Positions 45,435 through 57,170 of a stretch of DNA of 59,653 nt are shown here, one piece after another. The notes under the pieces were generated by a model. It made no database searches, was not told the origin of the DNA, and saw only the letters and a list, made by a program, of their open reading frames with translations. The translations under genes were made by a program, and so were the position numbers. Positions within the stretch are counted from its first letter, which is position 1. Every line of letters begins with the position of its first letter. This DNA is from Planctomycetales bacterium (GTDB lineage: Bacteria; Planctomycetota; Planctomycetia; Isosphaerales; Isosphaeraceae), in NCBI GenBank assembly GCA_027451885.1, contig DAIDHX010000155.1:1-59653 (forward strand), given 5' to 3'.

Positions 45435-45622
45435 AACCAATTCCTCCCGTCCTGGAATACGAGACGAAGCTTAGCCACATGAACCAACCAATCACGAGAT
45501 CCTGCCCGGGTTTTGCCAAAATCCATCAAAGTCATTCATCTTCGATCAGCTTGCTTGACATTTTGTGATTGCTGCTGGAGACTATTGTTAGATCTCTGGA
45601 ACGATTAGCTCCAGGACGAGGC

Positions 45623-46450
45623 ATGCTCGCTGAGACGCGCCGGCGCCACCTGCTGGAAATGATCACGCGCCAGGGTTACGCAACCCTGGAAGAGCTTGTT
45701 CGCCAGCTTGGGGTCTCGGACAGCACGGTGCGGCGAGACCTGGAGGCGCTCGATGCCCAGGGGGCGATCAAGCGGACGCACGGTGGGGCGGTGTACGCGG
45801 GTGAGGTGCGACTCATGCCCGCGTTTGACGACCGCACCGGTACGGCCGCGATCGAGAAGAGGGCGATCGGCCATCTGGCCGCGAGCCTGATTGCCGACGG
45901 TGACACGGTGCTTCTGGACGGCGGCACAACCACGCTTGAGGTTGCCCGGGCGCTTGTGGGCAGGCGGGTGCAGGTGGTGACGAACAGCTTACCGATTGCT
46001 CAGCTTCTGGCTTCGAGCCACGAGACCGACCTGATCATGCTTGGGGGATACATCTCGCCGCGAACGGGGGTGGCGCTTGGGCCGCTCACGATTCAGGCGA
46101 TGGAGTCGATCCGGGTTCGGACGGCGATACTGGGGGCCGGCGGAATCGTGGCCGAGGGGATCTATAACTCAAATTCGCTCCTGGTTGAGACTGAGCGTCG
46201 CATGATGCGGTCGGGCCAGGAGGTGATGATCGTGGCCGACCATACCAAGTTTGGCCGCATGGCCCTTGCGCGGTTGTGCGGGCTCGAGGAGGCGCATTCG
46301 ATCGTCGTCGATACCGGCGTGAGCGAGGCGAATCTGGCGATGCTCAGCCAGGCGGGGCTGCGCATCCACCTGGCGCGACTGGGCGATCTGCGAACCAATG
46401 GCGCGGCTCCCGAGCCAGCCGCCGCAACCGGGAAAAGGAGCGAGGGATGA
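45623..46450 (+). CDS. DeoR family transcriptional regulator of the microcompartment operon
   Basis: This protein has about 275 residues. The DeoR-type helix-turn-helix is at residues 1-55 (ETRRRHLLEMITRQGYATLEE, then GVSDSTVRRDLEALDAQGAI and RTHGGA). The C-terminal ISOCOT-like sugar-phosphate sensor has DGDTVLLDGGTTTLEVARAL near residue 92 and VVTNSLPIAQLL. DeoR regulators usually repress sugar-catabolic operons and respond to a phosphorylated intermediate. ATG 45623 has AGGA at 45613-45616; a longer frame from 45569 is less likely. The stop overlaps the pduL start (ATGA), so it is part of the operon it presumably controls; the inducer could be fuculose- or rhamnulose-1-phosphate (inference). 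Confidence 0.92.
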   Translation: MLAETRRRHLLEMITRQGYATLEELVRQLGVSDSTVRRDLEALDAQGAIKRTHGGAVYAGEVRLMPAFDDRTGTAAIEKRAIGHLAASLIADGDTVLLDGGTTTLEVARALVGRRVQVVTNSLPIAQLLASSHETDLIMLGGYISPRTGVALGPLTIQAMESIRVRTAILGAGGIVAEGIYNSNSLLVETERRMMRSGQEVMIVADHTKFGRMALARLCGLEEAHSIVVDTGVSEANLAMLSQAGLRIHLARLGDLRTNGAAPEPAAATGKRSEG

Positions 46451-47124
46451 CCGCAACGGCCGCACCCAGCCGCGCAGACATCGAGACGATGGTGCGACGG
46501 ATTCTCGAACGCCAGGGTTTGAACGGGCTTGCCGCGGCGGCCAGGCCCGCCCCCCGGGTCGTGGTGAATATCTCCGCGCGGCACTGCCATTTGACCCAGG
46601 AAGATCTTGAGGTTCTCTACGGTAAGGGCTACCAGCTCACCCAGCTCAAGCGGCTCTACCAGGACACCGACTTCGCGGCCAACGAGACGGTCGCGGTGGT
46701 TGGTCCCCGGCAGCGGATGATCCCGGGCGTGCGCATTCTGGGCCCGTGCCGTAAATTCACCCAGGTGGAGCTCGCCTTCACCGATGCCATCAGCCTGGGC
46801 ATCGACTTGCCGGTCCGGCTTTCGGGAGATATCGAGGGGACGCCCGGCTGCTTGCTCGTGGGCCCCAAGGGAACGCTCGAGCTCAAGAACGGCGTGATCC
46901 GCGCGGAGCGGCACGTGCACATGGGCCCGGCCGACGCCTCGTATTACGGCGTCCAGCATCTTGATCGTATGAACATGAAAATAGACAGTCCGTGCCCGTC
47001 GATCCTGAACGGGCTGCTGGTGCGGGTGCATCCCGACTGGAAGCTCGAGGTGCACATCGACACGGACGAGGCGAATTGTTGCGACCTGACCCACGCCACG
47101 AACGTTGAGCTCGTGAAGGCGTGA
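46447..47124 (+). CDS. pduL: PduL-type phosphate acyltransferase (microcompartment)
   Basis: This PTAC enzyme has about 225 residues and converts an acyl-CoA plus phosphate to an acyl-phosphate, recycling CoA within the shell. The two PduL domains are recognisable by the metal-binding His motifs NISARHCHLT near residue 38 and ERHVHMGPADASYYG near residue 154, together with VRILGPCRKFTQVELAFTDA. Residues 9-24 (RADIETMVRRILERQ) form an amphipathic helix like the encapsulation peptides of BMC-associated PduL. ATG 46447 overlaps the regulator stop, with AAGGAG upstream. Acetate kinase, encoded downstream, should convert the acyl-phosphate into ATP. Confidence 0.95.
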   Translation: MTATAAPSRADIETMVRRILERQGLNGLAAAARPAPRVVVNISARHCHLTQEDLEVLYGKGYQLTQLKRLYQDTDFAANETVAVVGPRQRMIPGVRILGPCRKFTQVELAFTDAISLGIDLPVRLSGDIEGTPGCLLVGPKGTLELKNGVIRAERHVHMGPADASYYGVQHLDRMNMKIDSPCPSILNGLLVRVHPDWKLEVHIDTDEANCCDLTHATNVELVKA

Positions 47125-47190: not shown

Positions 47191-47508
47191 ATGGCCTCGG
47201 CATCGGTGGAAGCGCTTGGAATGATCGAGACGAAGGGCTTTGTGGCCCTGGTGGAGGCCTCTGACGCGATGGTCAAGGCCGCCAATGTGGACCTTGTCGG
47301 TTGGGAAAAGATCGGCAGCGGTCTGGTGACGGCCTTCGTGACGGGCGACGTGGCGGCGGTGAAGGCGGCGGTTGACGCCGGCTCGGCCGCGGCCAGCCGC
47401 ATTGGCGAGGTTGTCAGCGTGCAGGTGATCCCGCGTCCGCACGAGGACCTGGGTGGCGTGCTCGCCTTTACCAAGGCGTCGAGCGCACCGAAGAAGGAAG
47501 GGGCGTGA
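47191..47508 (+). CDS. BMC-H shell protein 1 (pore motif KIGSG)
   Basis: This is a 105-residue single-domain BMC (Pf00936) hexamer protein. [20 protein letters not shown] opens the domain; the predicted pore loop is KIGSGLV, the same type as PduA, followed by [14 protein letters not shown] and IPRPHEDL. An Ala/Lys-rich tail of about 15 residues follows. ATG 47191 is preceded by AAGGAGG; a frame from 47173 adds six residues and is less likely. It tiles the shell facets and should conduct small polar metabolites through its central pore. Confidence 0.95.
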
Positions 47509-47512
47509 TTCG

Positions 47513-47839
47513 ATGGCCACACTGGAAAAATCGCGTGGCAAGGCGGGCGGCAGCGGCTCGGGGGGCATCGGCGACGCGCTTGGGCTCATCGAGACCAAGG
47601 GGCTTGTGGGCATGATCGAGGCGACCGACGCCATGCTCAAGGCGGCCTCGGTTGAGCTCGCCGGCCGCGTGCAGGTCGGAGGCGCCTTTGTGACCACGCT
47701 CGTCAAGGGTGACGTCGGCAGTGTGCGCGCGGCCGTTGAGGCCGGGGCCGAGGCCGCCGGCAAGGTCGGCGAGCTCGTCAGTGCCCACGTCATTCCCCGG
47801 CCTGATGAAGTGGTGCTCCGGACGTTCCTGGGCTCGTGA
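47513..47839 (+). CDS. BMC-H shell protein 2 (pore motif QVGGAF)
   Basis: This is a 108-residue single BMC domain with a Gly/Ser-rich N-terminal extension of about 22 residues (ATLEKSRGKAGGSGSGG). DALGLIETKGLVGMIEATDA begins the domain, the pore loop is QVGGAFV, and VKGDVGSVRAAVEAG plus VIPRPDEVV close it. It is more similar to shell protein 3 than to 1. It starts 4 bases after the previous stop. It should form hexamers with a different pore chemistry from the first paralogue. Confidence 0.95.
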   Translation: MATLEKSRGKAGGSGSGGIGDALGLIETKGLVGMIEATDAMLKAASVELAGRVQVGGAFVTTLVKGDVGSVRAAVEAGAEAAGKVGELVSAHVIPRPDEVVLRTFLGS

Positions 47840-47878
47840 CTTCTACCGACTCCTGACACGCTAAAGGACCTGAGTTCC

Positions 47879-48154
47879 ATGAACGGCAATGCCCTGGGCC
47901 TCATCGAGACGATGGGCCTGGTTGCGCTCATCGACGCGGTCGACGCGATGCTGAAGGCCGCGTCGGTCGAGCTGGCGACCTCGGTCATCAAGCTCGACGG
48001 CGGCGTGGTGAGCGTGATGGTGCGGGGAGACGTGAGCAGCGTACGAGCCGCGGTCGAGGCGGGCGCCCAGGCGGCCGCCAGGGTCGGCGAGCTCCGCGCA
48101 GCGCACGTGATTCCGCGGCCTGATACCTCCGTCGTCCGCGCGTTTGGAGGCTAG
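47879..48154 (+). CDS. BMC-H shell protein 3 (pore motif KLDGG)
   Basis: This minimal 91-residue BMC-H domain has no N- or C-terminal extension. GNALGLIETMGLVALIDAVDA opens it, the pore-facing loop is KLDGGVV, and VRGDVSSVRAAVEAG and VIPRPDTSVVRAF end it. The pore region carries an Asp not seen in the other two paralogues, so permeability may differ. AAAGGA lies 10 bases before the ATG, and the acetate kinase start follows 4 bases after the stop. Confidence 0.95.
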   Translation: MNGNALGLIETMGLVALIDAVDAMLKAASVELATSVIKLDGGVVSVMVRGDVSSVRAAVEAGAQAAARVGELRAAHVIPRPDTSVVRAFGG

Positions 48155-48158
48155 GCTT

Positions 48159-49361
48159 GTGAAAATCCTGGTCGCCAACCTTGGAAGCACGAGCTTCAAG
48201 TACCGACTGTTCGACCTTGGCCTCGCCGGCGAGCCGGTGCTGGCCAAAGGCGGCATCGAACGCATCGGCTCGGACCAGGCCAAGGTCAAGGTCTCGTCGT
48301 CGCGTGGCGAGCGCGAGCTCGTCCGCCCGATCGCCGATCACGGCGAGGCCGTCGACCTCTGCCTGAACCAGCTCGTCGATCCCGAGATCGGCGTGCTCAC
48401 AAACCCGGACGAGGTTGCGGCGATCGGCTTCAAGGCGGTGCACGCGCGGAATCTGACGGGCGTGCACAGGGTCGACGAGTCGGTGCTGCAGGCGATGGAG
48501 GCGTTTGCCGATGTCGCCCCCGCGCACAACCCGCCTTATACCCGTGCGATGCGCACCTTGCTCGCGCGGTTTCCCAGGCTCCCCCTGGTCGCGGCCTTCG
48601 AGACCGGCTTCCACCGCTCGATTCCCGAGGCCTCGCAGCGCTACGCGATCCCTGAACAGTGGGCGACCGAATTCGGCGTCCGCCGCTGGGGATTCCATGG
48701 CGCCAGCCATCGTTACATCGCCTGGCGCAGCGCAGAGCTCGCGGGCAAAAACGACATCAAGGTCATCTCCTGCCACCTGGGCGGCAGCTCCTCGCTCTGC
48801 GCCATCAAGAATGGACAGTCGATCGGTTGCAGCCTGGGCATGAGCCCCCAGACCGGGTTGCCGCACAACAACCGCGTGGGCGACTTCGACGTCTTCGCGC
48901 TGCCGGTGATCCTCCGCGAGACGGGCAAGTCGCTCGAGCAGGTGCTCGACGACCTGGCCAATCGTTCGGGGCTTGAAGGGGTTGGCGGCGCAGGGCGAGA
49001 CCTGCGCGACATCGAGACCGCGGCCGCGAGCGGCAACGCGCGGGCCCAGCTTGCGATCGACGTCTTCGTGAATTCGATCCGCCACTACCTGGGGGCGTAT
49101 CTCTTCGAACTCGGCGGCGCGGACATGATCGTCTTCACCGGCGGCATCGGCGAGAACTCTACCACCATCCGTTCGGGCGTGCTCCGCGGCCTGGATTGGT
49201 TCGGCATCTCGATCGACCCCGCGCTCAACGCCTCGGGACCAGCCGAACGCAAAATCTCAGCCCCGGGCTCACGCGTCCAGGTCTGGACCTGCCCCACGAA
49301 CGAAGAACTGGTGGTCGCGCGGCAGTCGAAGACCTTGCTGGAATCGGCAACCAGGGCGTGA
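48159..49361 (+). CDS. ackA: Acetate/propionate kinase (AckA family)
   Basis: This acetokinase has about 400 residues and converts the acyl-phosphate made by PduL to a carboxylate with ATP formation. The N-terminal phosphate block is VANLGSTSFKYRLFD, a BMC-type variant of the common NxGSSSxK. The substrate/ATP blocks are VAAFETGFHRSIPE near residue 145, WGFHGASHRYIAWR near 177, LGGSSSLCAI near 205 and the C-terminal FTGGIGENS near 327. GTG 48159 with GGAGG 8 bases upstream is the start. In PVM microcompartment operons this kinase accompanies PduL and the aldehyde dehydrogenase; the substrate is probably propionyl-, acetyl- or lactyl-phosphate (inference). Confidence 0.93.
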   Translation: MKILVANLGSTSFKYRLFDLGLAGEPVLAKGGIERIGSDQAKVKVSSSRGERELVRPIADHGEAVDLCLNQLVDPEIGVLTNPDEVAAIGFKAVHARNLTGVHRVDESVLQAMEAFADVAPAHNPPYTRAMRTLLARFPRLPLVAAFETGFHRSIPEASQRYAIPEQWATEFGVRRWGFHGASHRYIAWRSAELAGKNDIKVISCHLGGSSSLCAIKNGQSIGCSLGMSPQTGLPHNNRVGDFDVFALPVILRETGKSLEQVLDDLANRSGLEGVGGAGRDLRDIETAAASGNARAQLAIDVFVNSIRHYLGAYLFELGGADMIVFTGGIGENSTTIRSGVLRGLDWFGISIDPALNASGPAERKISAPGSRVQVWTCPTNEELVVARQSKTLLESATRA

Positions 49362-49391: not shown

Positions 49392-49709
49392 ATGTTCCTG
49401 GGTCGGGTGACGGGGAGCGTCGTGGCCACGCAGAAGGTTGGGTCGATGACGGGGCGCAAGCTCCTGCTCGTCGAGCCCTACCGTGTCGAGGACAAGGGCT
49501 CTCCCCGGCTCGCACCCACGGGGCGGTCGTTCGTGGTGGTCGACTCGCTCGGCGCGGGCCTGGGTGAAATGGTGCTCGTCTGCCAGGGCTCAAGCGCCCG
49601 GCTCACGAGCGAGACCGAGAAACTTCCCATCGACGCGGTCGTGATCGGACTCGTCGACACTGTCGACGTCAAGGGCCAGGTCGCCTACCGCGCCGGCGAC
49701 ATCGACTAG
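49392..49709 (+). CDS. BMC-P (EutN/CcmL) pentameric vertex protein 1
   Basis: This is a 105-residue EutN/CcmL-type (Pf03319) protein. MFLGRVTGSVVATQKVGSMTGRKLLL is the signature first strand-loop-strand, followed by VDSLGAGLGEMVLVCQGSSAR and the closing AVVIGLVDTVDV. It is longer than the second BMC-P because of an insert (EDKGSPRLAPTGRSF). It caps the five-fold vertices of the shell. Confidence 0.94.
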   Translation: MFLGRVTGSVVATQKVGSMTGRKLLLVEPYRVEDKGSPRLAPTGRSFVVVDSLGAGLGEMVLVCQGSSARLTSETEKLPIDAVVIGLVDTVDVKGQVAYRAGDID

Positions 49710-49755: not shown

Positions 49756-51180
49756 ATGCAAATGACGGAAGACCTGATTCGCAACGTGGTGCAGGAAGTG
49801 CTTGCCCAGATGGGTACAGGCACTCTTGCCAATGGCAAGGCCGGGGGCAAGCCGAGCGGCGACCTGGGCGTGTTCCGCTCGGTGGATGACGCCGTGAGCG
49901 CGGCGGCCGCGGCGTTCAAGAGCTTCCGCACCCGCCCGCTCGCCGATCGCAAAAAGGCTGTCGAGGTCGTGCGGCAAATCTGCGTGCAAAACGCGGAAGA
50001 GCTGGGCCGGCTCGAGCTCGAGGAAACCAGGATCGGCCGGCTCGATCACAAGATTGAGAAACTGAAGAATGCGATCGCCGTCGTGCCGGGCGTCGAGGCG
50101 CTCAGGACCGACAACGCGACCGGCGACGACGGGCTCACGCTCACGGATTATGTGCCCTTCGGCGTCATCGGCGCGATCACGCCGGTCACGCACAGCCTGC
50201 CGACCCTGGCCGGTAACGCGATCAGCATGCTGGCTTCGGGCAACACGGTGGTCTTCAACGCCCATCCCTCGGGTGCGCGGATCGCTGCCGAGGGCGTGCG
50301 CAGATTCAACCGCGGCATCAAGGAAGCGATCGGTATCGAGAACCTGCTCACGATCATCGACCCGCCGACGCTCGAATCGGCCGCTGGGCTTTTTGATCAT
50401 CGCGACGTGCGGCTGCTGGTGGTGACGGGCGGTCCCGCCGTGGCCCGGGCAGCGCTTGCCAGCAAGCGCCGCGCGATCGTGGCCGGGCCGGGCAATCCTC
50501 CGGTCGTCGTCGACGCCACCGCCTGCATCGAGAACGCAGCGCGGTCGATCGTCTCGGGCGCGGCGTATGACAACAACCTGCTGTGCATTGGCGAGAAGCA
50601 GGTCTTCGCGGTGAGCTCGATCTTCGACGCGCTCATGGAGGCCGTCGGCCGGCACGGCGGTTTCCGCCTCACCTCGCAACAGGTCGACGCGCTCACAACC
50701 GCGGCATTCGTCAAGGGGTCAGACGGGGCGCTTCACGTGAACAAGGACCTGGTCGGCCAGGATCCCGCGGTGCTGGCGCGGCACGCCGGCGTGACCATCC
50801 CGGCGGGCGTGCAGATCCTTTACGCCGAGACAGGCGCGGATCACCCGTTCGTCGATCACGAGCAGATGATGCCCTTCGTGCCGTTTGTGCGCGTCTCGAG
50901 CGTGGACAGGGCCATCGAACTCGCGAAAGAGTCGGAGCAGGGCTACGGCCACACGGCGATCCTGCACTCGCGCGATACATCGGTCATGTCCAAGATGGGC
51001 CGGATCATGGACTGCACGATCTTTGTGATCAACGGTCCCTGCACGGCGGGGCTTGGCCTGGGAGGCGAGGGCACGTTGTCGTTCTCCATCGCGGGGCCGA
51101 CGGGCGAGGGCGTCACCACTCCGCTGACCTTCTGCCGCCAGCGCAGGACGAGCGTGATCAAGGGTATGCGATTTGTTTGA
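49756..51180 (+). CDS. CoA-acylating aldehyde dehydrogenase (PduP/EutE-like), BMC-associated
   Basis: This 474-residue ALDH-superfamily enzyme should oxidise propionaldehyde/lactaldehyde-type aldehydes with NAD and CoA to acyl-CoA. The catalytic Cys is in YDNNLLCIGEKQVF near residue 275, with the NAD-binding GPAVARAALASKRR near residue 228 and ITPVTHSLPT near 139. Residues 4-20 (TEDLIRNVVQEVLAQMG) form an amphipathic helix followed by a Gly-rich linker, like the N-terminal encapsulation peptides of PduP. It is the signature enzyme of this BMC. The gene lies between two BMC-P genes. Confidence 0.95.
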   Translation: MQMTEDLIRNVVQEVLAQMGTGTLANGKAGGKPSGDLGVFRSVDDAVSAAAAAFKSFRTRPLADRKKAVEVVRQICVQNAEELGRLELEETRIGRLDHKIEKLKNAIAVVPGVEALRTDNATGDDGLTLTDYVPFGVIGAITPVTHSLPTLAGNAISMLASGNTVVFNAHPSGARIAAEGVRRFNRGIKEAIGIENLLTIIDPPTLESAAGLFDHRDVRLLVVTGGPAVARAALASKRRAIVAGPGNPPVVVDATACIENAARSIVSGAAYDNNLLCIGEKQVFAVSSIFDALMEAVGRHGGFRLTSQQVDALTTAAFVKGSDGALHVNKDLVGQDPAVLARHAGVTIPAGVQILYAETGADHPFVDHEQMMPFVPFVRVSSVDRAIELAKESEQGYGHTAILHSRDTSVMSKMGRIMDCTIFVINGPCTAGLGLGGEGTLSFSIAGPTGEGVTTPLTFCRQRRTSVIKGMRFV

Positions 51181-51225: not shown

Positions 51226-51507
51226 GTGCAGGTCGGAGTGGTGATGGGCACGGCAACGGCGACGATGAAGCATCCCACGCTTACGGGGGAGCGGATGCTA
51301 GTCGTGCAGCTTCTTACCGGCTCAAGCACGGCCGACGGCGAGCCCGTGATTGTGTTCGATCGCCTGGGCGCGAGGCGGGGTGATCGCGTACTTGTGACCA
51401 ATGACGGCCGCGCCTTGCAAGAACTGCTCGGGGCCACCACTCCCGGGCGCTGGAGCGTCATGGGCATACCCGATCTGGGTTCAGGCGAAGGCGAGGCGCT
51501 GCCATGA
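51226..51507 (+). CDS. BMC-P (EutN/CcmL) pentameric vertex protein 2
   Basis: This 93-residue EutN/CcmL domain starts at GTG 51226. MGTATATMKHPTLTGERMLVVQ, VFDRLGARRGDRVLVTNDGRALQ and the WSVMGI end are family landmarks. The stop overlaps the start of the third BMC-P (ATGA), so the two are translated together. It is one of three pentamer genes in the operon, as in described PVM loci. Confidence 0.93.
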   Translation: MQVGVVMGTATATMKHPTLTGERMLVVQLLTGSSTADGEPVIVFDRLGARRGDRVLVTNDGRALQELLGATTPGRWSVMGIPDLGSGEGEALP

Positions 51508-51839
51508 GAATCGGCGAGATCATCGGCCGCGTCACGCTCTCGCGCTCTGTGCCTGAAATCAAGGGAGGGCGGCTGCTCCTCACACGCCCGCTGCCCTTTG
51601 CCGCGCTCGCCCAAGGCGCACCCGATCGCGGCGAGGATCTGGTTCTTTACGACGAACTGGGCGCGGGGGCCGGAGCGATCGTGGCCATCAGCGAAGGCCG
51701 CGAGGCCGCAAACCCCTTCGGCAAGGTCAAAACGCCGATCGACGCCTATTGCGCTTGCCTTTTTGACTCCATCGACGTCGATCCCGACGTCACGCTCGAA
51801 CCACCCACATCCTCCAGAAAAGGATCGAGGAATCGATGA
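51504..51839 (+). CDS. BMC-P (EutN/CcmL) pentameric vertex protein 3
   Basis: This 111-residue EutN/CcmL protein begins MRIGEIIGRVTLSRSVPEIK, contains VLYDELGAGAGAIVAISEGREAA and closes with a Cys-containing AYCACLFDSIDV. A basic C-terminal tail (PPTSSRKGSRNR) distinguishes it from the other two. It overlaps both neighbours by four bases (ATGA), coupling shell and aldolase translation. Confidence 0.93.
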   Translation: MRIGEIIGRVTLSRSVPEIKGGRLLLTRPLPFAALAQGAPDRGEDLVLYDELGAGAGAIVAISEGREAANPFGKVKTPIDAYCACLFDSIDVDPDVTLEPPTSSRKGSRNR

Positions 51840-52801
51840 ACGTCAACGGATCGATCACAAACGAGTGGAAGCTGCGCGAGCAGATGTGCGAGATCGGCCG
51901 CCGCGTTTACAACAAGGGCTTCGCGGCCGCCAACGACGGCAACATCAGCCTCCGCCTCGACCAGGAACGCGTGCTCTGCACGCCAACCCGCGTCTCCAAG
52001 GGCTACATGAAGCCCGATGACCTCTGCATCGTCGACCTCGACGGCAAGCAAATCTCCGGCAAGCGCAAGCGCTCGAGCGAGATCTTGCTCCATCTTACGA
52101 TCATGAAAGCACGCGACGACGTGCGCTCCGTGGTGCACTGCCATCCCCCACACGCCACCGCGTTCGCCGTCGCCCGCGAGCCAATCCCCAAGTGCGTACT
52201 CCCCGAAATCGAGGTCTTCCTGGGCGAGGTGGCCATCTCTCCTTACGAGACGCCAGGCGGCCAGAGCTTCGCCGATACCGTGCTCCCGTTCGTGAAGGAC
52301 ACCGAGACGATCCTGCTGGCTAACCACGGCACGGTGACTTACGGATCCGATCTCGAGGACGCCTACTTCAAGACCGAGATCATCGACGCCTACTGCCGGA
52401 TCTTGATCCTGGCCAGGCAGCTTGGACGCGTAAACTATTACAGCGATCAGATGGCGGCCGAACTGATCAGCCTCAAGCCCAAACTGGGCATCCCGGATCC
52501 GCGGATCGAGCGCGGGCTCGAGAACTGCGACCTCTGCGGCAACAGCCTGTTTCGCGAGGGCTATGGCGCGCCTCCGCCCGAGCCCAAGGTGTTTGTGCAC
52601 CCCAAGATCGCGAGCGAGTTCCCGAACTCGCCGATTGAATCGTCCTACACGCCGCTCGGGCGCGACAGCCAGGGCAAGCCGCAGCCGGCGCCCGCGGCCT
52701 CAACCAACGGCCGCACCACCGTCGCGGCAACGGATACCGAGGCCATCGTGCAGGCTATCACCGACCAGGTCATGCGTGCGATGTCAGGGGCGGGCCGTTA
52801 G
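51836..52801 (+). CDS. Class II aldolase/adducin family protein (fuculose-/rhamnulose-1-phosphate aldolase-like) with C-terminal targeting helix
   Basis: This protein has 321 residues. The class II aldolase core shows AANDGNISLRL near residue 24, the Zn-binding HCHPPHATAF near residue 101, and the second metal His in LANHGTVTYGSDLED near residue 164. It should split L-fuculose-1-P or L-rhamnulose-1-P to dihydroxyacetone phosphate and lactaldehyde. A Pro/Ala-rich linker (residues about 275-298) leads to a C-terminal amphipathic helix, TEAIVQAITDQVMRAM, a likely encapsulation peptide. The core is about 215-230 residues in free-standing homologues, so the tail is an addition. It overlaps the preceding BMC-P gene by four bases. 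Confidence 0.93.
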   Translation: MNVNGSITNEWKLREQMCEIGRRVYNKGFAAANDGNISLRLDQERVLCTPTRVSKGYMKPDDLCIVDLDGKQISGKRKRSSEILLHLTIMKARDDVRSVVHCHPPHATAFAVAREPIPKCVLPEIEVFLGEVAISPYETPGGQSFADTVLPFVKDTETILLANHGTVTYGSDLEDAYFKTEIIDAYCRILILARQLGRVNYYSDQMAAELISLKPKLGIPDPRIERGLENCDLCGNSLFREGYGAPPPEPKVFVHPKIASEFPNSPIESSYTPLGRDSQGKPQPAPAASTNGRTTVAATDTEAIVQAITDQVMRAMSGAGR

Positions 52802-52861
52802 CCCGCGCCCGGCGAGCGCGAACCAGTGAGCTTAAATCAAGACTTGTCCAAAGGAACCTGT

Positions 52862-53908
52862 ATGCGAGTCAGCATCATTGGCGGCGGCGGCCTGGTGGGA
52901 TCGTCCACGGCATTCGCGCTTCAGTGCGGCGGCGTGGTGGATGGCATTGACCTCATCGACGCCAACGCGGATCTGGCGAAGGGGCAGGCGCTCGACCTGC
53001 TGCATGGCGCATCGCTCGTGGCCGACCAGCGGATCAGGGCCGGCGGCTATGAGCTGATTCCGTCGAGCGACGTGATCGTGATCACGGCCGGGCTCAGGCG
53101 CAAGCCGGACGAAAGCCGGCTCGATCTGATCAACCGCAACGTCGAGCTGTTTCTCTCCATCCTCGGCCAGGCCGCGGCGGCGGGACTTAAGCGCGAAGCG
53201 ATCGTGGTCGTGGTGTCGAACCCCGTCGATGTGCTGACCTACCTGGCGGTGAAGAAGCTGGGGCTGCCGCCTGAACAGGTGATCGGGCTGGGCACGGTGC
53301 TCGACACTGCGCGGTTCCGAAGTCTGATCGCGGAGTCGCTCGTGCTGCCCCCCACGCAGGTGACAGCACTCATTCTGGGCGAGCACGGCGATAGCATGGT
53401 GCCGATCTGGTCCGCCGCGCAGGCGGCGGGATTGCCGCTCGACAAGTTTCCAGGCTGGAATTCCGGGACGGCCGAAGCGCTCTTCAAACGCACCCGTGGC
53501 AGCGGCGCGGAGGTGATCAAGATGAAGGGGGGCGCAGGCTACGCCGTCGGCCTCTCGATTCGCGAGGTCGTGCACGCCGTGGCGCTCGACTCCCAGCGCA
53601 TCTTGCCGGTCTCAACCCTGGTGAACGGGCCCTACGGCATTCGCGACGTCTGCCTCTCGATCCCCACGGTCGTTGGCCGCGCAGGTGCGGTCAAGCAGCA
53701 TGAAATCGCGCTTTGGCCCAAGGAAATGCAGGCGCTCGAGCAGTCCGCCGGCGTGCTCCGGGAGACGATCGAGGCCGTTTACAAGAGCAATCCCAGGGCC
53801 GCGGGGGGCTCGATCGCACCCCCGCAGAAACCCACGAACTCAAGCGGATCCGTGCTCAAACCCGCACCCCGGGTCACCATCTCAGGCGGCGGCCGAAGGG
53901 GCGTCTGA
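52862..53908 (+). CDS. Lactate/malate dehydrogenase family protein
   Basis: This NAD-dependent 2-hydroxyacid dehydrogenase has about 348 residues. The Rossmann motif is IIGGGGLVGSSTAFAL at residues 5-20, the catalytic His is in LILGEHGDSMVPIWS near residue 178, and the mobile-loop Arg region is LRRKPDESR near residue 79 with NPVDVLTYL downstream. The NAD-recognition Asp is in LIDANADLA. The EHGDSMV block and PDESR loop fit the malate-type branch. A Pro/Ser-rich extension of about 35 residues follows the catalytic domain. It probably re-oxidises or uses NADH from the aldehyde dehydrogenase in the compartment (inference). ATG 52862 has AAGGAAC upstream. Confidence 0.92.
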   Translation: MRVSIIGGGGLVGSSTAFALQCGGVVDGIDLIDANADLAKGQALDLLHGASLVADQRIRAGGYELIPSSDVIVITAGLRRKPDESRLDLINRNVELFLSILGQAAAAGLKREAIVVVVSNPVDVLTYLAVKKLGLPPEQVIGLGTVLDTARFRSLIAESLVLPPTQVTALILGEHGDSMVPIWSAAQAAGLPLDKFPGWNSGTAEALFKRTRGSGAEVIKMKGGAGYAVGLSIREVVHAVALDSQRILPVSTLVNGPYGIRDVCLSIPTVVGRAGAVKQHEIALWPKEMQALEQSAGVLRETIEAVYKSNPRAAGGSIAPPQKPTNSSGSVLKPAPRVTISGGGRRGV

Positions 53909-53913
53909 TAGCC

Positions 53914-55254
53914 ATGCAAAAGTCGCTCGACCGCAAACTGGCCGCCATTCTGGCGGACCCAAACTGCGGGGAATTCATCATCGCCGACGCCAAGGACGCC
54001 GACATGGCCACCGGCCTGGGCGCGCCTGGCGCATCGCCCGAATCGCACCCAGGCGAGGTCCGCTTCAAGACCCTCGCGCAATACCGTGAACAAATGCGGA
54101 TCATTGCACGATCCGAGCTCGTTGACATCATGCTCATGTCCGCGAGCTCCAGCCACGCCCTCACCATCGAGGAGCGGTTCTTCGACAACTCGCCCGTCAC
54201 CCCCGCCGTCCGCGCCAATGACACCACAGATATCCACCTGGCACGCGGCGGGCATTACCACGAAAGCCCCTCACGCCCGTTCCGCACCGCCAACATCGAC
54301 CACATCCAGTGCGGCTACCTCGACTGCGCGCCCGAGGAACGAACCCGGGGCGCGAACCTGGGGCTTTACAGCGTCACCTTCAATAATGATTTGAATCATG
54401 ATCTGATCACACTCGAACGCTTTCATGCTTTTCGAGAAGAGGCCGAGCGCAAGGGCTTTCGCTACTTTCTTGAGATCTTCGATCCCAACGTTCCCAACGC
54501 GGTCCCGCCCGAGATACTGCCCCGCTTTTTGAACGACATGATCACGCGGATGCTGGCCGGGGTTGCGCCCGCGGGGCGGCCGGTGTTTCTGAAGCTCGTG
54601 TACCACGGGCCAAGAGCGATGGAAGAGCTCGTGCGCTTCGACCCGCGCTTGATCGTCGGCGTGCTGGGGGGGTCGGCAGGCACCACACGCGACGCATTCC
54701 AGCTTATCCACGATGCGCAAAAATATGGTGCCAAGGTTGCGCTTTTCGGGCGCAAGATCAACGGCGCTGAGAACCAGCTTGCGTTCGTGCATTTTTTGCG
54801 TTTGATCGTCGAGCACCAGATTGGACCGGCGGAGGCGGTGCGTGCCTATCACGCCGTACTCGAGCGGCTGGGACTTCGGCCGCATCGCCCACTTGACGTC
54901 GACCTGCAAGAAACAGCGCAGTCGATGAGCTATGCGGGATCAGCACCGGTGATGGTCACGAAGCCTTCGACGCCCGCGGCGGAGCCTGTTCTCGTGTCTG
55001 CTGTCGCTCCTGCACCCGGGGCCAAGGCCTCGGCCTGCGGATGCCATGGCGCGGAGCCAAAGCCGTCTGCGGCTCCGCCCGCGGATTCAAGCTGCAAGTG
55101 CCACGCGCGCCCGCTTGTCACCGAGTCGAGCGCATGGCGGCGAACGGTCGCCAGGCAGCAACCCATCCCCAGCACAAACGGCTGGCCAGACTTCGCTCGC
55201 ATGTCCGCCGCGGAACGGCTTGCGTATCATCGTAACCGCCTCGGGCTGGGTTGA
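53914..55254 (+). CDS. Unrecognised TIM-barrel/class I aldolase-like protein with Cys-rich tail, BMC-linked
   Basis: This protein has about 446 residues and starts 5 bases after the dehydrogenase stop, which places it firmly in the microcompartment operon. I do not recognise a named family. Residues 35-345 look like an alternating beta/alpha barrel: DIMLMSASSSHALTIEERFF near residue 69, GRPVFLKLVYHG near residue 222 (possible Schiff-base Lys), LIVGVLGGSAGTTRDAFQLI, and KVALFGRKINGAENQLAF near residue 275. These resemble DeoC/LacD/FbaB-type barrels. The C-terminal 90 residues are Ala/Pro-rich with two CXCH motifs (CGCHG, CKCH). It may process the aldolase product or metal-bind in the lumen; function is unassigned. 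Confidence 0.8.
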   Translation: MQKSLDRKLAAILADPNCGEFIIADAKDADMATGLGAPGASPESHPGEVRFKTLAQYREQMRIIARSELVDIMLMSASSSHALTIEERFFDNSPVTPAVRANDTTDIHLARGGHYHESPSRPFRTANIDHIQCGYLDCAPEERTRGANLGLYSVTFNNDLNHDLITLERFHAFREEAERKGFRYFLEIFDPNVPNAVPPEILPRFLNDMITRMLAGVAPAGRPVFLKLVYHGPRAMEELVRFDPRLIVGVLGGSAGTTRDAFQLIHDAQKYGAKVALFGRKINGAENQLAFVHFLRLIVEHQIGPAEAVRAYHAVLERLGLRPHRPLDVDLQETAQSMSYAGSAPVMVTKPSTPAAEPVLVSAVAPAPGAKASACGCHGAEPKPSAAPPADSSCKCHARPLVTESSAWRRTVARQQPIPSTNGWPDFARMSAAERLAYHRNRLGLG

Positions 55255-55268
55255 ACGCACCAGAGCGC

Positions 55269-57170
55269 TCAGGAATCCCCCAGCCGTGCTGCCAGCTTGC
55301 GGCGGTACTCCTCGAGTCTTGCGCGATGCTCGGGCAAGCGGCTCAGGTCGCGCGTTTCGTCTGGATCGGCTTCAAGATCGTAGAGTGCTTCGCCGTCGTG
55401 CTCGCGGAGATGATAAACATACCGGCCGGCCGCGATCGCGCGCGCTGAGCCGTGCGCAACCCCAGGCGACCTGCGCTCATGCCCGTGCTCAACCTGGGCA
55501 TGAAGCTCGGAAAGCACGCCCCCATCCGCGTTCATCGTTCCGCCCTCGCCGCCCCAGAATCGCGAAAGCGAGCAGCCTGGGAAACGCGCTTCACCCCCTG
55601 AACCGGCCATCTCCATCACAGTTTGCGCCACATCCCGCAAGCTAACGGGCTCATGCACGTGAGTGCTCCCCGGAACACGCCCGGGCAAGGAGATGACAAG
55701 CGGCACGTGGACTTCCGAGCGATACAGGCTCAGCCCATGCCCAATCCCGCCGTGCTCGTAGAACTGTTCGCCATGGTCGGCCGTGATGATCACGAGCGTT
55801 CGATTGAGCAGCCCGCGTAGATCCAGTTCGCGGAAGAGCTGGCCGAGCTCGGCGTCGAGGGCAGCGAGGCAATCGTCGTAGGAGTCACGTGCAAGTTCCA
55901 GAAACTCAAGCGCGGGGGCGGCACGCGCCAGCATTCCCCAGTCGCGCAGAATCATGGACTCTCGCCGGGTGCGCGGAGTCTCGCCAAACGGATGCGCAGG
56001 CGGTGCGGGGGGCAGATAAGGATCATGCGCATCGAAGAAATTCAAGAACGCAAAGAACGGCCTGGGCTCATGCGTGTCCAACCAGTCGGTGAATTCCCTG
56101 CGCACGGTCGCGGCCGGCTTGCGATCGAAGTCAAGGCTCACACGCACGGGTCGAGCGGGTGCGAGGGCCCAGAGCAGCTCTTCACGCATCCGCTCGATCT
56201 TGCGAGAGATAAGCCATCCCAGGCTTGACGAGCGAACGATCGTGCCCAGGGTAACAGGGAAATCGTGGTAGGCCTCGAATCCGCGCGCCAGACCCGACTC
56301 ACGCCCGCAGAAGAAGGTATTACCAACGAAGCCGGCTGTGGCATAGCCGCGGTCGCGCAGGTGCTCCGCGAGCGTGGGCCTGGCTCGATCGAGCCAGCCG
56401 CGTTCCTCAACGCCGAGCTCATGCGGCCAGCGCCCGGTAAAGAGGCTCGCGTGCGAGGGCAATGTCCAGGGCGCAGCGGCCCTGGCCCGATGAAATACGA
56501 CGCCCCGCTCGGCAAATCGCTTGAGGTTGGGCGTGGTGTTGCGTGCATAGCCGTGGAGACTCAGGTGGTCTGCGCGAACCGTGTCGAGCACCACGAGCAG
56601 AACGTTCGGGCTGAACGGTGGCGCGGGTTTCGAGGCAGATCGCCAACGCCGCGACGCGATCTCGATGGTCGTCGGTGCGAGCGCCAGAATGACCAGCGAG
56701 AAAACAAGCGATGGCAATGTGCGCGCAGTGACCCTCTCGAATCCAGCCGAACGGTCCGCGAGCCAGCGGCTCCCGCGATAGCTGATCCCCGCGGCGACCA
56801 GAACGCACGTCACAAGATGTACGCCGGGAATCACGAGCGTCAGCGCGAGCATCGCAAAAGCCAGATTCACCGCCAGAACAAGACGCCCCGAGATCCGCGC
56901 GCCGGCATGCACGGCCAGGCCCCACCCCGCCCCCATCGCTCCGAAGAGCAAGAGATCCGAGAGCGGGATCATCCACACAAACTGCCGGCTTCGCAGCACG
57001 AATCCCTTCTCGAACAAGAACGCTCGCAGACCAACGAGCACGAGCTCGCCCACCCCGGTCATGAGACCGAACCAGAGGCAGGATACGAGCACCAAAACCG
57101 GTGTTTGGCCGTGAACAGGTTGTTGACGCGCAGAGGCTTCGCCACCCGCGAGGGATTTGCTACGCCGCAC
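55269..57170 (-). CDS. Membrane sulfatase/phosphatidate-transferase-fold protein lacking the formylglycine motif
   Basis: This protein has about 633 residues with a GTG start and GGAG upstream. Five or so hydrophobic helices over residues 24-190 precede an extracytoplasmic alkaline-phosphatase-fold sulfatase domain: NVLLVVLDTVRADHLSLHGY near residue 188, APWTLPSHASLFTGRWPHE near residue 232, DAHDPYLPP near 370 and ITADHGEQFYEHGG near 458. In place of the Cys/Ser-X-Pro-X-Arg formylglycine site there is Thr-Leu-Pro-Ser-His, as in LtaS/phosphoethanolamine-transferase-like enzymes. It is therefore probably a phosphotransferase or phosphodiesterase, not a classical sulfatase (inference). Metal-binding Asp/His residues are present. 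The gene is convergent with the microcompartment operon, 14 bases apart. Confidence 0.88.
   Translation of the reverse strand: MRRSKSLAGGEASARQQPVHGQTPVLVLVSCLWFGLMTGVGELVLVGLRAFLFEKGFVLRSRQFVWMIPLSDLLLFGAMGAGWGLAVHAGARISGRLVLAVNLAFAMLALTLVIPGVHLVTCVLVAAGISYRGSRWLADRSAGFERVTARTLPSLVFSLVILALAPTTIEIASRRWRSASKPAPPFSPNVLLVVLDTVRADHLSLHGYARNTTPNLKRFAERGVVFHRARAAAPWTLPSHASLFTGRWPHELGVEERGWLDRARPTLAEHLRDRGYATAGFVGNTFFCGRESGLARGFEAYHDFPVTLGTIVRSSSLGWLISRKIERMREELLWALAPARPVRVSLDFDRKPAATVRREFTDWLDTHEPRPFFAFLNFFDAHDPYLPPAPPAHPFGETPRTRRESMILRDWGMLARAAPALEFLELARDSYDDCLAALDAELGQLFRELDLRGLLNRTLVIITADHGEQFYEHGGIGHGLSLYRSEVHVPLVISLPGRVPGSTHVHEPVSLRDVAQTVMEMAGSGGEARFPGCSLSRFWGGEGGTMNADGGVLSELHAQVEHGHERRSPGVAHGSARAIAAGRYVYHLREHDGEALYDLEADPDETRDLSRLPEHRARLEEYRRKLAARLGDS

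Follow-up and report, generated by a model that had tools for sequence, protein, structure and literature searches.

PVM microcompartments have been described with a single aldolase, a class II enzyme (PF00596). Why, then, does the PVM operon of this planctomycete end with a second aldolase-like gene, and what could its product do in the compartment? The window, by which we mean the whole stretch of DNA analysed (59,653 nucleotides), holds a complete operon for a PVM microcompartment (BMC), whose genes are arranged in the following order, with the aldolase-like gene closing it:

45569..46450, + strand: DeoR-family regulator, PvmA-like (PF00455/PF08220)
46444..47124, + strand: presumed PduL-type phosphotransacylase with an EP-like N-terminus (from its translation and conserved position, assigned by family knowledge rather than by an HMM)
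47191..48154, + strand: three BMC-H shell proteins (47191-47508, 47513-47839 and 47879-48154; PF00936)
48162..49361, + strand: acetate/propionate-type kinase (PF00871, TIGR00016)
49392..49709, + strand: BMC-P shell protein (PF03319, match at 49392-49658)
49756..51180, + strand: acylating aldehyde dehydrogenase of the EutE/PduP type with an EP-like N-terminus (NF011927, above cut-off)
51226..51507, + strand: BMC-P shell protein (PF03319)
51504..51839, + strand: BMC-P shell protein (PF03319)
51836..52801, + strand: class II aldolase, the PVM signature enzyme, with a C-terminal linker and a canonical EP-like helix (PF00596)
52826..53908, + strand: LDH/MDH-like dehydrogenase, the predicted NAD recycler of the BMC (PF00056/PF02866)
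53914..55254, + strand: class I (Schiff-base) aldolase-like gene, 446 aa, the final gene of the operon (open reading frame and orthologues)
55269..57170, - strand: sulfatase-family gene (PF00884), convergent with the operon end

The open reading frame on which the first-pass annotation rested is real, and its translation runs exactly 446 residues from the ATG. The gene starts 5 nt behind the LDH-like gene and, as had been proposed, is the last of the operon, because the convergent sulfatase gene faces it. It represents a real, unnamed aldolase subfamily that belongs to PVM compartments and has two unusual features in its tail. We consider it probable that the protein is a class I, metal-independent sugar-phosphate aldolase of the DhnA/LacD superfamily, which would be carried as PVM cargo and act as a second DHAP-type aldolase in the lumen. 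Its fold, the equivalence of its lysine, its association with PVM systems, and the conservation of its tail were all computed. The parts of the protein to which we refer are these:

53920..54903, + strand: TIM barrel, about residues 3-330 (AlphaFold2 model; Z 20-22.6 to class I aldolases)
54592..54594, + strand: codon of K227 in strand 6, the predicted Schiff-base lysine (PVFLKLVYHG; from invariance and alignment)
54934..55185, + strand: disordered Ala/Pro-rich linker, residues 341-424 (pLDDT <50 over 341-415; unalignable between orthologues)
55039..55107, + strand: CGCH (C376-H379) and CKCH (C395-H398), a form of a recurrent CxC...CxC module
55189..55242, + strand: conserved C-terminal helix, residues 426-443 (DFARMSAAERLAYHRNRL; pLDDT block means 78-89)

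The earlier description of the protein as TIM-barrel-like and similar to class I aldolases agrees with the AlphaFold2 model, built on a 63-row alignment, and with structural alignments. The model is a TIM barrel whose core pLDDT is mostly >90 (strands at 22-26, 72-75, 96-100, 149-155, 183-189, 226-229, 248-252, and 275-278), followed by a disordered linker and a terminal helix. The best Foldseek matches are LsrF (E 4e-10), LacD, and ADH synthase, with E about 1e-9, and VIA-align gives Z scores of 22.6 for ADH synthase, 21.7 for archaeal FBP aldolase (FBPA), 21.1 for sulfohexulose-1-P aldolase, and about 20.5 for LacD and YihT. LsrF aligns within the range 20-22, and class I aldolases overall at Z 20-22.6. 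The statement that no family could be named stands in part: the protein is absent from Pfam, but its superfamily can be named as that of the DhnA/LacD-type Schiff-base aldolases, with LsrF and ADH synthase nearest. A Pfam profile search assigned no family to it, and 20 orthologues searched at E up to 1 gave four stray single-member Pfam matches (E 0.02-0.22), none of them an aldolase; PF01791, the DeoC/LacD family of Pfam, was matched by none of these 20 members at that threshold. Scores against the NCBIfam models of ADH synthase (NF005556/TIGR01949; 19.4 bits, cut-off 241) and class I FBPA (NF040816; 16.3 bits, cut-off 299) are far below cut-off. Sequence searches of the PDB with the protein and its profile returned designed TIM barrels and a single weak Rumi match, which were set aside as giving no direct family. 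Two weak matches of the protein search within the phylum, in genomes G030 and G096, belong to the DhnA-type aldolases themselves.

The active site can be placed in the same framework. K227 lies on strand 226-229 of the model and is invariant in 63 sequences. In hhalign comparisons with DhnA-type proteins from genomes of the phylum (probability 95-97), FLKLVYHG falls opposite IVKCVYTG, and the DhnA-type lysine is in turn aligned with the lysine of LsrF, ADH synthase, and the archaeal FBPA of T. tenax. The search for a fold and an active-site lysine suggested by the first-pass annotation returned a class I aldolase-like barrel with K227 as the predicted Schiff-base lysine. The LsrF entry 4p2v has an alanine at this position, and we take it to be a deliberate mutant. 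D25, E187, G252-G253, and G279-R280 are also invariant in the 63 sequences; the two glycine-containing pairs follow strands 7 and 8, respectively, and align with DhnA-type proteins as phosphate-binding motifs. E187 precedes K227 by 40 residues, which we take to be close to the spacing between Glu163/164 and the lysine of LacD. Membership of the DhnA/LacD-type superfamily is well supported by the fold, the lysine equivalence, the phosphate motifs, and the weak DhnA-type matches, and aldolase activity would follow from it.

Comparison with solved relatives shows what is shared and what is particular to this subfamily. With LsrF, ADH synthase, and archaeal class I FBP aldolase (3glc, 2qjg, 1w8s), it has in common the TIM barrel, the Schiff-base lysine in strand 6, and the GG and GR phosphate-loop motifs, but identity to them is about 15%, the barrel is longer here, and the DhnA-type proteins lack the C-terminal linker and tag. 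With LacD, YihT, and sulfohexulose-1-P aldolases (3mhg, 7ag7, 8tnf), it shares the fold (Z 20-21), whereas identity is 11-15% and those enzymes have no link to BMCs. A DeoC-type aldolase (PF01791) of SPU BMCs (PMC8217296) provides another case of a class I aldolase as a BMC enzyme; however, DeoC is recognised by Pfam and belongs to another BMC type, while the protein described here has no Pfam match and a different C-terminal tag. The class II aldolase of the same operon resembles it in the type of reaction proposed and in having a C-terminal linker and terminal helix, but its fold is unrelated, it belongs to a metal-dependent family, and its helix has the canonical I/L/V pattern. The conserved tail of the protein probably places it inside the compartment, which suggests that PVM compartments use two different, structurally unrelated aldolases rather than one.

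Is the gene really tied to PVM compartments? We searched 195 Planctomycetota genomes and found a homologue covering the whole barrel in 21 of them. BMC-P is over the cut-off in 72 genomes, 30 of which have a PVM-type class II aldolase, defined by at least 45% identity (the remaining genomes reach at most 38%). The gene is present in 20 of these 30 PVM-type genomes and in none of the 42 other BMC-P genomes. The single carrier lacking BMC-P (G059) encodes a tailless protein. Within Isosphaeraceae, 42 of 45 genomes have the gene, as do 26 of 26 genomes of good quality. Most of the 80 named loci for which enough sequence is available have it directly behind the LDH gene or the class II aldolase gene, and it closes the operon in most complete loci. 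The BMC linkage proposed earlier is thereby borne out in other PVM loci: by co-occurrence the gene is PVM-specific and part of PVM compartments in many planctomycetes, and its product would be inside the shell. Linkage is not strict: in seven of the 20 carriers the gene is far from the BMC locus, with the tail kept in six of those seven. Ten of the 30 PVM-type genomes do without the gene, which is therefore dispensable for the pathway. Around the BMC-unlinked copies, no neighbour is widely common. Within about 10 kb of such copies, five loci (L044, L065, L072, L084, L085) encode members of one protein cluster; the member tested is DUF1501 (PF07394), and the cluster is possibly just common in planctomycetes. 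On a KSB1-labelled contig (L099:9121-9975), a tailed orphan class I aldolase immediately follows a class II FBP aldolase (PF01116), and no BMC gene was detected within the 13 kb of contig examined.

Within the tail, conservation is highest in the C-terminal peptide, which the first-pass annotation had not mentioned. A motif of the form [DN]Fxx-M-[TS]xx[EQ][RK]LAYHRxRL occurs near the C-terminus in 79 of 80 relatives (consensus DFxxMTxxERLAYHRxRL, with F in 72/79, M in 77/79, and Y in 73/79), behind linkers of 23-99 residues. In the model, the helix itself spans residues 432-442, with flexible linker before it. Position and linker resemble those by which encapsulation peptides are defined (PMC8217296). 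Yet the peptide does not look like a textbook encapsulation peptide: the hydrophobic moment of its helix is not above that of shuffled sequences, although by this measure the EP-like helices of the other three enzymes of the operon are not clearly above either. Its sequence also seems more conserved than we would expect of an encapsulation peptide. Since it is kept even where the gene is far from the operon, it is probably a docking or encapsulation tag, though we would not call it a canonical encapsulation peptide. There are exceptions: one genome with a PVM BMC (G078, locus L022) has a class I aldolase that stops right after the barrel (...LSYS), and in genome G127 the tail is degenerate. 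No credible second copy of the peptide was found elsewhere in the genome.

The second unusual feature lies in the linker. The tail had been described as Ala/Pro-rich with CGCHG and CKCH motifs about 24 residues apart; composition and motifs are as described, but the spacing is 19 residues. The motifs are in the disordered linker and not in the active site, and c-type haem binding was rejected on the grounds that the motif is CxCH or CxC rather than CxxCH and that the histidine is not conserved. Among 91 linkers, 33 contain cysteine, 25 contain exactly four, and 29 carry at least two CxC motifs, compared with a mean of 0.3 and a maximum of 3 in shuffled linkers; the exact CxCH form is confined to eight linkers, only two of which have it in pairs. 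In the Isosphaeraceae operons with both aldolase linkers readable, CxC is found in the class I linker only (29), the class II linker only (8), or both (1), and never in neither (Fisher 1.8e-7, ignoring relatedness). The loci with CxC in the class II linker and none in the class I linker are L033, L037/L174, L039/L161, L090, L101, L143, L146, L149, L151, L158, and L165, of which L090 and L101 are labelled Phycisphaerae; L140 has one CxC in each linker. Once relatedness is corrected for, the pattern reduces to four changes within Isosphaeraceae and six over 74 operons, the differing states always being opposite in direction; the sign test for a swap is not significant, and four to six changes are too few to reach significance. 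The module is not universal, since 20 operons, mostly outside Isosphaeraceae, have it in neither linker. The linker sequences are consistent with a lineage-specific metal or redox module of the lumen. A more specific proposal, which we put forward tentatively, is that the linker of either aldolase can carry an exchangeable CxC...CxC module, often with histidine, which in the lumen binds a metal or Fe-S centre or makes a redox disulfide, and that together with the new sequence-specific docking peptide this module makes up a second cargo-organising system of BMCs. A sequence-specific cargo tag and a cysteine module that apparently alternates between two cargo proteins would make the metal or redox chemistry of the lumen testable.

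Homologues outside microcompartments separate the barrel from the tail. Rhizobial and Vibrio plasmid homologues share about 50% identity with the protein and end at the barrel: none of 47 plasmid homologue records covers the tail or spans 80% of the query, and the annotated ones are named 'hypothetical protein'. In these tailless proteins, which have no BMC context, the active-site residues are equally invariant. The linker cysteines are thus unlikely to be needed for chemistry, because the catalytic residues persist where the whole tail is absent. The Shinella and Pararhizobium genes follow a sugar ABC transporter and overlap a gene for a PfkB-type kinase. The Vibrio gene is flanked by a GlpD-like dehydrogenase and an aldehyde dehydrogenase, and an FGGY kinase is encoded close by. 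Such sugar operons are the context that would be expected of a sugar-phosphate aldolase.

What the enzyme would do can be framed by the known pathway. The PVM BMC breaks down fucose and rhamnose via lactaldehyde (PMC4207490), with fuculose- or rhamnulose-1-P cleaved to DHAP and lactaldehyde (PMC4207490; PMC8857213), and the pvm promoter of P. limnophila is induced by rhamnose (PMC11958385). In the mechanism that we propose, a ketose-1-phosphate would be held by the GG (252-253) and GR (279-280) phosphate loops, and K227 in strand 6 would react with its keto carbon to give an imine. Cleavage of the C3-C4 bond would release DHAP and a short aldehyde, at best guess lactaldehyde from L-rhamnulose-1-P or L-fuculose-1-P, and the aldehyde would pass to the encapsulated acylating aldehyde dehydrogenase, while the flexible linker and C-terminal peptide would target or dock the aldolase in the shell. 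As a second aldolase next to the class II enzyme, acting on the same or a stereoisomeric ketose-1-P, it could provide a wider stereochemical or sugar range or more flux. The earlier claim of a role beyond that of the other enzymes is uncertain: two genes upstream lies the class II aldolase, whose aldol cleavage the protein may repeat or extend. Its substrate can only be guessed, because neither canonical L-rhamnose isomerase (RhaA) nor fucose isomerase (FucI) co-occurs with the gene, for which reason we dropped a functional coupling to them, and because the gene is missing from a third of PVM genomes. If confirmed, the second aldolase would shed light on the processing of both fucose and rhamnose in one compartment, or would point to a further substrate.

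That further substrate leads to the alternative that survives best, one that we regard as possible although clearly less likely than the proposed reading: the enzyme might act on a different ketose phosphate (e.g., a pentulose-1-P, which would yield glycolaldehyde, or some other deoxy- or sulfo-sugar), extending PVM beyond fucose and rhamnose. The lack of co-occurrence with the two isomerases fits this, as do the seven carriers with the gene away from the BMC operon, the ribulo-/xylulokinase-like and PfkB kinases of the rhizobial and Vibrio operons, and the fact that 6-substituted hexulose-1-phosphates are the substrates, actual or implied by name, of the structural neighbours YihT and sulfohexulose-1-P aldolase; yet the gene is the last of the operon, behind an LDH-like gene, in most complete loci, and unlinked copies have no consistent second sugar cluster alongside. 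Sulfofucose catabolism was discarded as a precedent, since PMC12421959 credits a different aldolase.

It is rather unlikely that the protein is an FBP/TBP-type aldolase joining the DHAP made by the class II enzyme to glyceraldehyde-3-phosphate, or an enzyme of general glycolysis found in or near the BMC by chance. Archaeal FBPA and LacD are among the nearest solved relatives, the PVM pathway yields DHAP as a by-product, and the Vibrio homologue matches a class I FBP aldolase model, but this match is weak and far under the cut-off (22.6 bits, cut-off 430). Furthermore, within the sampled phylum the gene is confined to PVM-type BMC genomes and its tail tracks the BMC, which would be odd for a housekeeping aldolase, and the free-living homologues are in specialised sugar operons. 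That the protein is mainly a scaffold, with a barrel past the need of catalysis carrying the CxC linker (for metal or disulfide) and the C-terminal peptide to organise the cargo core, is very improbable: the peptide is highly conserved and the CxC module recurs and alternates between the class I and class II aldolase linkers, but all aligned members, tailless homologues included, have the active-site residues unchanged.

One of the tailless homologues has neighbours of interest in their own right. On a plasmid of Vibrio nigripulchritudo (L110:7599-14556), the class I aldolase homologue is encoded together with an FGGY kinase, a zinc dehydrogenase, a GlpD-like oxidoreductase, and an aldehyde dehydrogenase, a set that looks like an uncharacterised polyol catabolic pathway.
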